DNA of 50,581 bases, taken from contig CAIOZA010000114.1 in assembly GCA_903862655.1 (NCBI GenBank), forward strand, positions 1-50,581, read 5' to 3'. Below the pieces are notes generated by a model, which was not told the origin of the DNA, searched no databases, and worked only from the letters and a program-made list of their open reading frames with translations. Source of the DNA: an uncultured Ignavibacteria bacterium. GTDB taxonomy: Bacteria > Bacteroidota > Ignavibacteria > Kapaibacteriales > UBA2268. This document shows positions 14,277-40,234 of the stretch, piece after piece (position 1 is the first letter of the stretch; each line of letters starts with the position of its first letter). The position numbers were made by a program, and so were the translations under genes.

Positions 14277-14326
14277 ATTTGCTCTTGATTTAGATTTATT
14301 TGTATGCAAAGTGGATGTTAGTAGGG

Positions 14327-14363
14327 AACCCCAAAAGTTTGACAAAAACTTTTGGGGTTTTTT
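14327..14363 (+). terminator. Strong intrinsic terminator
   Basis: A perfect 14-bp stem (14327-14340 with 14346-14359, AACCCCAAAAGTTT and its complement), a 5-base loop and a T run ending at 14363. It closes the three-gene envelope unit 50 bases after its last stop codon. Confidence 0.95.
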
Positions 14364-14500
14364 ACGTGAAAAACATTTAGATATTAATATAAACAAAACA
14401 TAATAATACTCTATAATTTACGAAACAATTAAAGATATTCTAAAAATATCAATTTAAATATCTTTTTCAAAAATTGCCTCCTCAAATATAATAATGACAC

Positions 14501-14617
14501 ATGAAAAGCCAAAACGTCTCACAGATTTTGAAAATACTTTGTAACGAATTATCAGATGCTGATTTAGAAGGATTGCGAAAAATTGAGAAAGATGAGGATT
14601 TTAGTCATTTTAGATAG
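14501..14617 (+). CDS. Possible 38-aa small ORF or gene remnant
   Basis: An ATG-started frame encoding 38 residues (MKSQNVSQILKIL... DFSHFR) with plausible amphipathic content and no clear ribosome site; CTCCTC rather than a purine-rich box precedes it. It stops just before the repeat block at 14657. It could be the 5' stub of a gene interrupted by the repeats, a small protein, or chance. The remainder of 14364-14800 holds repeats and AT-rich DNA, with no other gene seen. Confidence 0.2.
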   Translation: MKSQNVSQILKILCNELSDADLEGLRKIEKDEDFSHFR

Positions 14618-14656
14618 ATTGACAATTGAATTGATTCTGAAATGCAAAAGAATACA

Positions 14657-14710
14657 CTGGATTCCTCACTGGATTCCTCACTGGATTCCTCACTGCGTTC
14701 GGAATGACAG
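14657..14710. repeat. Three tandem 12-bp repeats fused to a dispersed repeat
   Basis: The 12-mer ctggattcctca is repeated exactly three times (14657-14668, 14669-14680, 14681-14692) and runs into ctgcgttcggaatgacag (14693-14710), the second half of the unit seen at 1681-1746. The block therefore looks like slippage expansion of the first half of that dispersed repeat. Confidence 0.9.
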
Positions 14711-14729
14711 CGTCTATGGATGCGGGATT

Positions 14730-14778
14730 ACAAAGATTCGCTACGCTAGGCCTAGGGCACCTGCATGCGCAGGAATGA
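14730..14778. repeat. 49-bp dispersed repeat, copy 2
   Basis: Identical to 1755-1803, with CTAGGCCTAG and the CCTGC-ATGC-GCAGG stem-loop. As in the first copy, it lies just downstream (plus-strand sense) of a gattcctcac...ggaatgaca unit, so the two elements travel in the same order and orientation. It ends 26 bases before the stop of the transposase-like gene. Confidence 0.9.
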
Positions 14779-14804
14779 ACTGTGTTAAAATATCAATTCT
14801 AAAT

Positions 14805-15962
14805 TTAGAATAAACTGCAGCTGTCGGTAGTCATGTTGCATTTTGAGTAGAATATTGGCACCTGGATGCATCTGGCGGCGATTTCAATAACAAAGGTCTT
14901 GAGTATTGCACTGTCCTTTTCAAGTTCGATTATCACAGGCTTCTGACCGCAGGAAAATAACTTAAATGATGATCTTGCGGGGAGCTGAGAATAAATCGTT
15001 AGTCTGCTGAAACCGGAGTCTAGTTGGGATATCATAGTTTTTGCAATCCAGCCATTAACAAGTGGGTATGGATCTTCCTTGAGCATGTGGAATTTCTCAA
15101 ATCGAGTCTGGAAAGCAGTAGTCAAACCTTCAATTCTAATTTTAGGTCTGCTGTCGAGTCTTTCTTTTAATCTCTTAGTAAATAGCTCAGGATTAGTTTG
15201 TAGAAAATCGTTCAGATTGATACTGAAATTTTTCTGAAGATAATTGTTCAGATTCTGGTTATTCATACTTTCGTATGAAGTAAGAGCGTCATTGATTAAC
15301 TTTATATTGATAGGTAACTTATTAAGACAGCACATTAGCTCCTGATCTCGGTAAGCACTATGATAATAAATCCTGAGATGAGCATCGGGATAAATACTCA
15401 ATACTGCTTCCTCAATATGCTTAGAGCCATTAGTCATGAATGTCTGAGTGAATATTCCGCGTTTGTCGAGCCTGGTTAAAAGGGTCTGCCAGACACTTCT
15501 GGAATCCTTAAGCCCAATCTCAAACCCGAGAACCATCGATGATAAAGCTTCGACAGCCATTGCCACATACATGGTATTATTTTTTGACCCGGGAATAGAG
15601 CAGGAAAAATTCTTACCAATGAGATAAACTAGTTTTGTATCATGATTAATAACACAAGCATCCAGAAAATCTTCCCAATCGGGACATCCTTCTAAAAATT
15701 CTCTGATCTTCTGATTTATTCTCAACGGCGAACTTTTGTAGGTGTCGACAAGTTCACGATATGTTTTACCGCTCAGGTAAGACTCGACAACATCTGAGAT
15801 GTCGGGTCTATTCATATCTTTACGTTCTTGTATCCATGTCTTGCTGCAATTACGACATCTGTATCGCTTGTGGCCTTTGGAAGTTGTTCCGTGCCTGATT
15901 ACCTTACTGCTTTTACAGTAAATACAAGTTATTTCATCAATATATTCTTCAATCAAGTACAT
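14805..15962 (-). CDS. Transposase-like protein with degraded DDE site, possibly domesticated
   Basis: 385 aa, uninterrupted. The N-terminal zinc ribbon has C13-x2-C16 ... C36-x2-C39 in the sequence CIYCKSSKVIRHG...KRYRCRNCSKTW, as in IS1/InsA and related transposases, followed by a helix-turn-helix-like stretch. The central region follows the plan of MULE/IS256-type RNase H domains: LDACVI near D101, a strand YVAMAVEALSSMVLGFEIG, and FMTNGSKHIEEAVLSIYPDAHLRIYYH. The second catalytic Asp, normally in TDG, is Asn178, and no third acid is evident. It has a good promoter of its own, and I see no terminal inverted repeats or target duplication. A DNA-binding host protein derived from a transposase, or a recently dead copy, are both possible; the intact frame favours the former. 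Confidence 0.65.
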   Translation of the reverse strand: MYLIEEYIDEITCIYCKSSKVIRHGTTSKGHKRYRCRNCSKTWIQERKDMNRPDISDVVESYLSGKTYRELVDTYKSSPLRINQKIREFLEGCPDWEDFLDACVINHDTKLVYLIGKNFSCSIPGSKNNTMYVAMAVEALSSMVLGFEIGLKDSRSVWQTLLTRLDKRGIFTQTFMTNGSKHIEEAVLSIYPDAHLRIYYHSAYRDQELMCCLNKLPINIKLINDALTSYESMNNQNLNNYLQKNFSINLNDFLQTNPELFTKRLKERLDSRPKIRIEGLTTAFQTRFEKFHMLKEDPYPLVNGWIAKTMISQLDSGFSRLTIYSQLPARSSFKLFSCGQKPVIIELEKDSAILKTFVIEIAARCIQVPIFYSKCNMTTDSCSLF

Positions 15963-15993
15963 TTAATTATCTGAGATTTGCAACATAAGATTA

Positions 15994-16024
15994 CAAAAAT
16001 ACCATTATCCGGCTCAATCACAAA
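15994..16024 (-). promoter_or_regulatory. Promoter of the transposase-like gene
   Basis: On the minus strand TTTG (16021-16024), spacer of 19, TATTTTTG (15994-16001): full matches to both elements. The -7 box with 11 following bases (15983-16001) is identical to the rpoZ promoter at 40192-40210. Confidence 0.65.
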
Positions 16025-16055
16025 AAAAAATTAATTGATAGATAAAAAAAAAGAA

Positions 16056-16087
16056 TTTGGAGATTAAAATATTTGTTAATATTTTTG
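16056..16087 (+). promoter_or_regulatory. Promoter of the tetR-efflux unit
   Basis: TTTG (16056-16059), 20-base spacer, TATTTTTG (16080-16087): exact matches to the Bacteroidota -33/-7 pattern. The expected transcription start falls inside the palindrome at 16091-16115. Confidence 0.7.
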
Positions 16088-16090
16088 ATT

Positions 16091-16115
16091 AATTAGTTTA
16101 ACCGTTTAGTTAATT
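16091..16115. promoter_or_regulatory. Candidate TetR operator (25-bp imperfect palindrome)
   Basis: Outer arms AATTA / TAATT and inner arms TTAAC / GTTAA-type pairs give symmetry around 16103 with a few mismatches. It sits between the -7 box and the tetR ATG (16119), where bound repressor would block initiation. The half-site AATTAACTAAA of its complement recurs at 16741-16751 before the tolC-like gene. AT-richness means some chance symmetry must be allowed for. Confidence 0.5.
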
Positions 16116-16118
16116 ACT

Positions 16119-16724
16119 ATGAAAATTGAATTAACAACCGAAGAGAAAATATATGAGGCTGCCAAAGAAATCTTTTACAGAAAAGGTCTCGATGGAGCAA
16201 GAATGCAGGAAATTGCTGATCTGGCAGGCATCAATAAAGCCCTGCTACACTACTATTTCAGAACAAAGGAAAAATTGTTTGGAGCAATTGTGAAAAGGGT
16301 AGCAGAAGTATTTTTTCCGGTACTCTTCTCTACATGGAATATGGACATCCCATTTGAAGCCAAGATATATACTTTTACTGACAAGTATATTGATTTTCTT
16401 ATTAAACATCCGTTCATTCCAAATTTTGTAATCAACCTGATTCATCAGAATCCAGATAAGGTAAAATCTCTGTTGAATTTTGACAAACTTCCAATCAGTG
16501 CTCAGCTCGAAGAACAAATACGCGTAGAAATCGAAGCAGGAAATATTATAGATGTTGACTGGCGTCAGATAATCATTTCGATAATTAGCCTTAGTGTGTT
16601 CCCATTTATTGGAAGTCCAATGCTGAAAATAATTTTTAAACTTGATGACGAAGAATTTTTGAAAATTATGGAAGAACGTAAGCTAATAATTCCCAAAATG
16701 GTAATGGCTTGGTTAAAACCATAA
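16119..16724 (+). CDS. TetR/AcrR family repressor (CecR-like)
   Basis: 201 aa. The N-terminal helix-turn-helix is typical: EKIYEAAKEIFYRKGLDGARMQEIADLAGINKALLHYYFRTKEKLF (residues about 8-53, described here by its parts: ILEAA-type helix, recognition helix INKALLHYYF). The C-terminal ligand domain is variable. It leads a unit of TolC, HlyD, two ABC ATPases and two ABC-2 permeases, the same set that CecR (YbiH) controls with ybhGFSR in E. coli. With a palindrome on its own transcription start, auto-repression and control of the exporter are likely. The ligand cannot be read from the sequence. Confidence 0.9.
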   Translation: MKIELTTEEKIYEAAKEIFYRKGLDGARMQEIADLAGINKALLHYYFRTKEKLFGAIVKRVAEVFFPVLFSTWNMDIPFEAKIYTFTDKYIDFLIKHPFIPNFVINLIHQNPDKVKSLLNFDKLPISAQLEEQIRVEIEAGNIIDVDWRQIIISIISLSVFPFIGSPMLKIIFKLDDEEFLKIMEERKLIIPKMVMAWLKP

Positions 16725-23085: not shown

Positions 23086-23403
23086 ATGCCTCTGTTTGAA
23101 TGGCACGATGTGAAAATAAATGTGGATGATGATGGTTTTATGGAGAATCCTGATCAGTGGAATGAGGATATAGCTGTAGCATTGGCTTCGACTGAGGATC
23201 TGATTATTCTAACTGATGAACATTGGAAGGTTATTAATTATTTGCGGGATTACTTTAAGCAATATGGAATAGCACCCATGATCCGTAAGTTATGCAACGA
23301 AACAGGATACGACCTGAGAAAAATATATGAACTCTTTCCATCCGGACCTGCTAAAGGAGCATGCAAAGTTGCTGGGCTATCAAAGCCGACTGGCTGTGTT
23401 TAG
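23086..23403 (+). CDS. dsrC: DsrC-family sulfur-carrier protein with both redox cysteines
   Basis: 105 aa from the ATG at 23086, which follows AAGGAG by five bases; upstream in-frame codons are not needed by the family. The chain is collinear with DsrC/TusE: DDDGFMENPDQWNEDIA, ILTDEHWKVINYLRDYF, and the C-terminal arm GPAKGACKVAGLSKPTGCV. Two Cys, the penultimate residue and one eleven before it, are both present, which marks true DsrC rather than TusE, where only the last is kept. DsrC carries the trisulfide product of sulfite reductase DsrAB. No dsrAB, dsrMK or tusBCD genes are in the window, so partners lie elsewhere or it serves another sulfur-relay or regulatory role. Confidence 0.9.
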   Translation: MPLFEWHDVKINVDDDGFMENPDQWNEDIAVALASTEDLIILTDEHWKVINYLRDYFKQYGIAPMIRKLCNETGYDLRKIYELFPSGPAKGACKVAGLSKPTGCV

Positions 23404-39821: not shown

Positions 39822-40151
39822 TTAGACGATATTCATCTTTTTTTCGATTACAACTGGCTGTTCCGGCATATTGAATTCGATTTTCTCATCCATAATTTCT
39901 CTCATAGCAAGAAACGTTGGTTTGGGAAGAGTATCAAACTCACGACTAATAGCAATCTGATCGTAGTTAGTACCTTCAGTATCGCTATTATCCTGGATAA
40001 CATCAGCCATTCTTTCTGTGATTTCATTCTTAATGTCATCATTAATCTGTCTGGAACGCATTCCCATAGCAACTATCGACTGATAGATACTACCCTTTGC
40101 GGATTCTTTCATACGAACTACGACAGGATTGATTTTAAAGAAGCTTTCCAA
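39822..40151 (-). CDS. rpoZ: RNA polymerase omega subunit-like protein
   Basis: 109 aa. The core GSIYQSIVAMGMRSRQINDDIKNEITERM aligns with the omega/Rpb6 helix (IYEAVVVMAKRARQIN). A variable acidic C-terminus with LPKPTFLAMREIMDEKIEF follows, as in Bacteroidota omega proteins. The product stabilises the beta' subunit in RNA polymerase. It has a complete Bacteroidota promoter (40203-40234) and an about 45-base leader. I call it from the short core, so somewhat less certain than longer genes. Confidence 0.75.
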   Translation of the reverse strand: MESFFKINPVVVRMKESAKGSIYQSIVAMGMRSRQINDDIKNEITERMADVIQDNSDTEGTNYDQIAISREFDTLPKPTFLAMREIMDEKIEFNMPEQPVVIEKKMNIV

Positions 40152-40202
40152 GGTTCACCTCAATGACTAGATAAAGTTAAATTATTACTCGACATAAGAT
40201 TA

Positions 40203-40234
40203 CAAAAATAAGATAAAATTCTCTATTATGCAAA
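40203..40234 (-). promoter_or_regulatory. Promoter of rpoZ-like gene
   Basis: On the minus strand TTTG (40231-40234), spacer of 20, TATTTTTG (40203-40210), both exact. The 19 bases at 40192-40210 are identical to the transposase-like gene's promoter at 15983-16001. Confidence 0.7.

Follow-up and report, generated by a model that had tools for sequence, protein, structure and literature searches.

The gene designated T, which occupies positions 14805-15962 on the minus strand of the window (the whole stretch of 50,581 nucleotides that was analyzed), encodes a domesticated transposase, catalytically dead as read from its sequence, and on balance the protein seems to act as a DNA-binding regulator of dissimilatory sulfur metabolism. 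The original prediction for this locus had proposed a transposase-like gene kept for a host role such as DNA binding; what it could not see is the link of T to the genes of sulfate reduction.

The claim of an intact full-length frame with a zinc ribbon and an RNase H-like plan was confirmed. The open reading frame codes for 385 amino acids at exactly 14805-15962 on the minus strand, and its domains were identified as follows, all on the same strand. The InsA-type zinc ribbon (residues 11-44, positions 15831-15932) was matched by Pfam PF03811 (E 1.9e-8, residues 11-39, score 34.3 against the cut-off of 26.1) and by NCBIfam NF050000 (39.2 against 28), and its four cysteines, C13, C16, C36 and C39, are invariant in 39/39 intact homologues. 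Helices of the predicted model at residues 55-92 (15687-15800) are read by us as HTH-like. The RNase H-like core (residues 106-200, 15363-15647) was recognized by Pfam, by the predicted model and by structure and profile matches, and between the RNase H halves the model helices, by analogy to the insertion domain of ISCth4, point to a helical insertion (residues 201-270, 15153-15362). The alignment of T homologues further revealed a C375-x6-C382 tail (14817-14840), which is present in 18/18 close-clade T copies and also in genera g18, g25 and g16. Among 17 genus representatives, the zinc ribbon and the HTH-like helices are the best-conserved parts of T, with a mean modal residue frequency of 0.70-0.71 vs 0.54-0.67 in the other structured parts.

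The match to the Mutator transposase family PF00872 is partial (residues 127-195 only, 23.1 bits against the cut-off of 21), and all whole-protein NCBIfam transposase models scored far under their cut-offs, including the IS256 equivalog (31.8 vs 150 bits) and the IS1 model NF033558 (43 vs 100 bits). The AlphaFold2 model, built from 25 family members, was confident (mean pLDDT 86.8) and, together with the profile alignment, predicts an RNase H/DDE integrase fold of the Mutator type. The best structural matches of the model were chains of ISCth4 (Foldseek E 1.2e-7, TM-score 0.39; VIA-align Z 12.9, rmsd 6.9 over 229 residues), followed in VIA-align by retroviral integrase cores (Z 10-12), and the sequence-profile match to ISCth4 gave E 3.6e-5. 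An exact promoter had also been proposed for the gene, but a scan of the 238 bases upstream of the start codon listed no sigma-70-like site on this strand, the minus strand. Two sequence elements were noted beyond the 3' end of T: short tandem 12-bp repeats (CACTGGATTCCT) at 14655-14700, close to this end, and a perfect 14-nt inverted repeat with a 5-nt loop, followed by thymines, at 14327-14359, which lies 3' of an 883-amino-acid open reading frame and is terminator-like, though the site scan listed none there.

The catalytic residues of ISCth4 are given as D175, D241 and E348 in the excerpted text of PMC7780238. The corresponding positions in T were taken from the profile alignment, in which the chain positions equal the published numbers plus 3. 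The second catalytic Asp (D241) aligns with Asn178 (15429-15431, minus strand), as had been predicted, but this change is one of two losses, for Ile115 (15618-15620, minus strand) stands in place of the first Asp (D175). Among the 39 intact homologues, the first position is occupied by I, V, A, S or Q and the second by N (24), Y (8), R (4) or K (3), and an acidic residue was found at neither position (0/39). The prediction that no third acid is evident did not hold: the alignment of the 39 homologues gave the candidate Glu278 (15129-15131, minus strand), which we infer to be equivalent to E348 of ISCth4 and which is E in 25 and D in 14, that is, acidic in 39/39. The DDE catalytic triad is therefore broken at both Asp positions in every intact homologue and acidic at the candidate third. 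A complete triad elsewhere, which had been named as contrary to domestication, did not appear among the aligned positions. That T is an active transposase or recombinase whose active site has changed, as might be proposed from the retained fold and the one retained acidic position, is hardly credible against the replacement of both Asp positions in 39/39 homologues and against a copy number and gene order that speak against mobility.

In its own genome (4.07 Mb, 98% complete) a single match was detected, so that the many copies with flanking inverted repeats expected of an active element did not appear. A single-protein search of 60 genomes gave 21 matches including its own, and none in the 24 genomes from other families of the order. 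By profile search, 34 of the 54 genomes of the family showed some match, consisting of 30 with an intact gene, one (G005) with a split gene and three with the zinc-ribbon end only. A total of 39 intact loci were thus collected from 37 genomes, 30 of the 54 in one Kapabacteria family and seven in one genus (g50) of another. One full-length copy is present in 29 of the 30 family genomes with an intact gene, and two in G014. The single-copy orthologues that the original prediction suggested looking for were accordingly found, but the Asn named there is kept in 24 of the 39 homologues and replaced by Y, R or K in the others. In a phylum-wide search of 395 sampled genomes with up to four candidates scored per genome, matches outside the family covered only the first 112 profile positions, and no active close relative was detected. 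Carriage by viruses or plasmids was also considered and rejected: 46 stretches of viral contigs matched the pattern but none was confirmed as a relative, and the one plasmid match is an IS1595 transposase aligned over residues 9-97.

The full-length homologues of T share 53-65% identity across genera, the others 37-41%, and an internal stop was found only in the split G005 copy. Of the 57 within-genus pairs, 13 had a dS between 0 and 2, and in these the dN/dS ratio of T ranged from 0.015 to 0.055; the remaining pairs were saturated. The gene order around T is common to the species of g24, g25, g50 and g19, and partly so in g8, g18 and g21. Within 14280-16120 no inverted pair of at least 12 bases brackets the T frame, in line with the lack of terminal inverted repeats noted before, and the direct repeats found in the same search are too short to mean anything. 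The split G005 copy (locus L058) was left out of the motif comparison, the dN/dS estimates, the T tree, the residue counts and the conservation profile, and locus L145 out of the second alignment. In G005, where dsrA found no match, the homologue (C30:5835-6976) is divided between two frames, by either decay or assembly error.

That T is a passive passenger, or an insertion sequence immobilized so recently that it has not yet decayed, was already disfavored and is highly improbable: its origin from a transposase family and the split copy in the dsrA-less genome G005 would agree with it, but it is opposed by the low dN/dS, by homologues that have diverged to 53-65% or 37-41% identity without stops except in G005, and by conserved neighbors within genera, absence of terminal repeats and single copy. 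A decaying insertion sequence was likewise rejected on dN/dS, and an active one on copy number, missing repeats and lost Asp residues. Based on the loss of both Asp residues everywhere, the purifying selection, the mostly single copy, the gene order kept at the genus level and the absence of terminal repeats, T was judged to be a domesticated and dead transposase, and the proposal of domestication is thereby supported.

The family is probably the UBA2268 Kapabacteria, a name given to hot-spring carriers of dsr in the excerpted text of PMC10591310. Among the 54 family genomes, dsrA was detected over the cut-off in 14, and all 14 carry T (Fisher p 9e-5, the counts ignoring shared ancestry). The same 14 genomes have aprA, over the cut-off in 13 and split at contig ends in G006. 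In the class sample of 197 genomes, dsrA was over the cut-off in eight, namely G007 and seven g50 genomes, and all eight have T; the g50 genomes G083, G128 and G155 showed no dsrA over the cut-off and were not among the T matches. In g50, T is located 218-494 bp upstream of dsrA in 8/8 loci, both copies of G199 included, and is preceded by a dsrP-like gene at a distance of 0.4-0.9 kb in seven of the eight loci and 5.7 kb in L150. In G025, the order is T, sat, aprB, aprA, two unnamed genes, a QmoC-like gene, dsrA, dsrB and a dsrD-like gene. The second T of G014 is situated between qmoAB-like genes and the series sat-aprB-aprA, two unnamed genes, QmoC-like gene, dsrA, dsrB and dsrD-like gene, and in G035 sat lies 5.6 kb from T. 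In most genera of the family, T does not adjoin sulfur genes within the flanks read. The cut-offs of the NCBIfam models were exceeded for dsrA, dsrB and DsrC in L147 and for sat, aprB, aprA, dsrA and dsrB in L064; the DsrK, DsrO and DsrP models stayed under cut-off, and two DsrD-like proteins matched no NCBIfam family at 1e-5. The genes that we take to be dsrD, dsrN, dsrL, dsrM and qmo at these loci are named from sequence and position.

A second association was found with DsrC. The window contains a DsrC gene with two C-terminal Cys codons at 23086-23403 on the plus strand, 7 kb from T, whose product is a possible functional partner of T by co-occurrence, and no dsrA or aprA match was detected in this genome despite the DsrC gene. 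Of the 54 family genomes, 19 carry close-clade T (the split copy of G005 counted) and 19 carry a DsrC with 63% identity or more (that of G025 being partial); 18 have both, the genome of the window among them (p 3.6e-12, with shared ancestry ignored and with the 63% cut-off set after the list had been seen). The exceptions are G021, which has a close DsrC and no T, and G011 (76% complete), which has T and no close DsrC. Apparent tandem double-DsrC proteins, frames of 218-279 amino acids with two DsrC-like matches each, were observed in G018 (C4:9875-10501), G006 (C153 and C183), G020 (C6), G035 (C18) and G076 (C127).

Other neighbors of T were identified as signaling genes. In five genera (g5, g7, g12, g19 and g26) a gene of one response-regulator cluster is located just before T or a few genes before it, and in g15 another member of the cluster lies about 6 kb from T. 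At locus L046 the member joins a receiver domain to GcvH and has no DNA-binding Pfam domain. In g19 and g12, the response regulator is preceded by a histidine kinase, which carries PAS domains in L046. At L046:6047-9665, a protein-kinase-like gene, the PAS histidine kinase and the response regulator-GcvH gene stand in a row upstream of T, and a similar arrangement was seen in L047 and L048. In the 12 genomes of the divergent clade, none of which has dsrA over the cut-off, T is beside other genes, which we take to be adenylate kinase in g24, g4 and g16 and a glycogen-synthase-like gene in g25.

The T and DsrA trees were compared for the cluster-borne second copy of G014 (G014b). In the T tree this copy joins g50 at 100/99, and the other G014 copy joins G004 at 100/99. 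In the DsrA tree, DsrA of G014 joins that of g50 at 99/98, apart from the 13 other DsrA sequences of the family. The C-x6-C tail is missing from both g50 T and G014b; divergent T of g24 and g4 also lacks it, with one Cys only in g4. The grouping of both G014b T and G014 DsrA with g50 suggests, as the simplest account, that T moved together with the dsr cluster. The exact place of the G014b-g50 group in the T tree is uncertain, as long branches are brought together in it and bootstrap support is only 82-93% at the forks by which the group falls within the family clade.

A candidate regulatory site, TTTTGTAATCTTATGTTG, is located 18 bases upstream of the T start codon (15981-15998, minus strand), and was recognized by its resemblance to half of an element in g50. 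The spacer between T and dsrA in g50 has diverged throughout, apart from one block of about 60 bp that precedes dsrA. The whole block found no good match in the family loci compared; when one half is read on the opposite strand, as TTTTTGTATTCT-GAG-TGTTG, it is similar to TTTTGTAATCTTATGTTG, to the regions before T in other genera and to the regions before sat. The common motif, TTTTGTAWTC-N3-TGTTG, occurs upstream of T and of several sat and dsrA genes, and was first noticed by eye on these same sequences. The g50 half-sites scored above the upstream regions of 164 control genes in front of close-clade T (18 sequences, p 5e-8) and in front of sat (13 of the 14 dsr-positive genomes, the G033 sat region being left out; p 4e-5). 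No enrichment was detected upstream of divergent-clade T (1/12, L144, with a score of 14) or of g50 T, where no conserved sequence was seen. In a scan of all element windows averaged by genus, the best value (p 1.5e-4) was obtained for T plus sat with a 20-mer holding this half, and correction for the 43 windows of this length gave a p of about 0.006, correction for all 141 a p of 0.02. Unsupervised motif discovery was not significant for sat and dsrA alone (4/20 and 6/20 control sets as good); for the pooled set 0/20 control sets were as good, but with 60 starts vs 25 for the controls. The motif statistics are, altogether, moderate and partly in conflict, and the site upstream of T, sat and dsrA is a candidate operator only.

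In addition, genome-wide searches with the pattern in 17 relatives yielded 77 matches vs 29 for the reversed pattern, overlapping matches included, and five of them are T or sat sites. A regulon could not be drawn from the motif in the own genome: its eight perfect gapped matches consist of the T site, three in repeats, three inside open reading frames and one before a BatD-like gene. A motif upstream of DsrC was also rejected, for the window site is similar by eye but the DsrC upstream regions are not enriched (p 0.59, 0.72). A one-mismatch copy of the motif, TTTTGTAATCTTATGTCG, was noted in the window at 40190-40207 (minus strand), 38 bases upstream of an RNA polymerase omega/Rpb6-like open reading frame (39822-40151, PF01192), and three near-identical repeats carrying TTTTGTATTCTCTGTGT lie within 900 bp at G000:C12:52506-53380.

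The motif might instead belong to the core promoter or to another regulator, with T acting in sulfur metabolism by other contacts. Its version in g21 contains the promoter-like TATAATCT, and the response regulator-GcvH gene near T in several genera could be such a regulator, but the L046 protein is without a DNA-binding Pfam domain, and a score of at least 13 was reached by 15/18 close-clade T upstream regions and by only 11/164 controls, which argues that the motif is not a general promoter. We consider this explanation unlikely.

A general DNA-binding role of the dead domesticated transposase, in the nucleoid, in repair or at other genes, with the position in dsr clusters being secondary, is a more serious alternative, yet still a doubtful one. 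In its favor, 17 of the 31 T-bearing family genomes (the split G005 and the window's own genome included) have no dsrA over the cut-off, the divergent clade carries T beside non-sulfur genes and without enrichment of the motif, and a one-mismatch motif copy precedes the omega/Rpb6-like gene in the window. It is opposed by the location of T just upstream of dsrA in all eight g50 loci, by its apparent movement with the cluster into G014, and by its presence in every dsrA-positive genome examined, in the family as well as in the class sample.

The reading of T as a regulator of sulfur metabolism thus draws on its presence in all dsrA-positive genomes, its position before dsrA or within the clusters, the co-transfer and the T-DsrC overlap, and further on the motif scores, on the predicted DNA-binding domains being the best conserved and on the neighboring response regulator-GcvH module. 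Counted against it are the T-bearing genomes without dsrA, the motif nulls for g50 T, divergent T, DsrC and unsupervised sat/dsrA, the G021 and G011 exceptions, the long-branch grouping, and the location of T mostly away from sulfur genes. By its sequence, T is a relative of the IS256/Mutator type that has lost DNA cutting and kept its core together with a predicted DNA-binding front end of zinc ribbon and HTH-like helices; on this reading it would serve as a sequence-specific transcription regulator. In sulfate reducers, T may bind a site that precedes the sat-apr-qmoC-dsr operon or the dsr operon. In the close clade, where T is vertically inherited, it may also bind a site before its own gene, leading to autoregulation. 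In some genera, T could be the DNA-binding output of the neighboring pair of PAS histidine kinase and response regulator-GcvH, and in the genome of the window it might serve in a role, older or left over, that relates to DsrC-type sulfur metabolism. More tentatively, a DDE transposase may have been captured in Kapabacteria as a dedicated switch of dissimilatory sulfate reduction, inherited and transferred with the sat-apr-dsr cluster, controlling itself in the vertical lineage, and perhaps sensing sulfur or redox state through the C-x6-C tail or the linked kinase/regulator pair.

In T, a DDE-type transposase fold has apparently been turned into a long-standing bacterial protein that is probably a regulator and is linked to a respiration of central ecological importance. 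If this is true, T offers a proper label for genes that are otherwise catalogued as transposases and a control switch, open to testing, in sulfate reducers of an uncultured lineage; it also cautions that a gene called 'transposase' within a metabolic cluster may belong to that cluster. The exaptation of transposases is well documented in eukaryotes. A limited search of the open-access literature found no transposase-derived regulator of dsr genes. The main texts of two papers on dsr (PMC6338057, PMC10591310) contain no word beginning with 'transpos', and the term DDE is absent from the available portion of a review from 2022 on the recruitment of mobile elements in prokaryotes (PMC8987985).

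Among known systems, T is similar to ISCth4 of the IS256/Mutator group (PDB 6xg8, 6xgw, 6xgx) in having an RNase H-like core, a helical insertion and helices before the core, but is different from it with respect to the loss of the first two catalytic Asp residues, the InsA zinc ribbon in front, the absence of terminal inverted repeats and of multiple copies, and the CxxH motif of ISCth4, which is unmatched in the profile alignment. The N-terminal zinc ribbon is shared with IS1 and IS1595 (InsA), but the whole-protein model of IS1 was reached at only 43 of the 100 bits. Another likeness is to TldR, the nuclease-dead homologues of TnpB, which are RNA-guided and belong to a protein family unrelated to T. 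TldR proteins are described as RNA-guided transcription factors in excerpts of PMC13418256, and on that account T would resemble them as a transposon enzyme kept as a regulator after the loss of catalysis. T differs from TldR in its DDE-type fold with a zinc ribbon and HTH-like helices of its own, and, in common with regulators of dissimilatory sulfur genes, it is found inside or beside sat-apr-dsr clusters.
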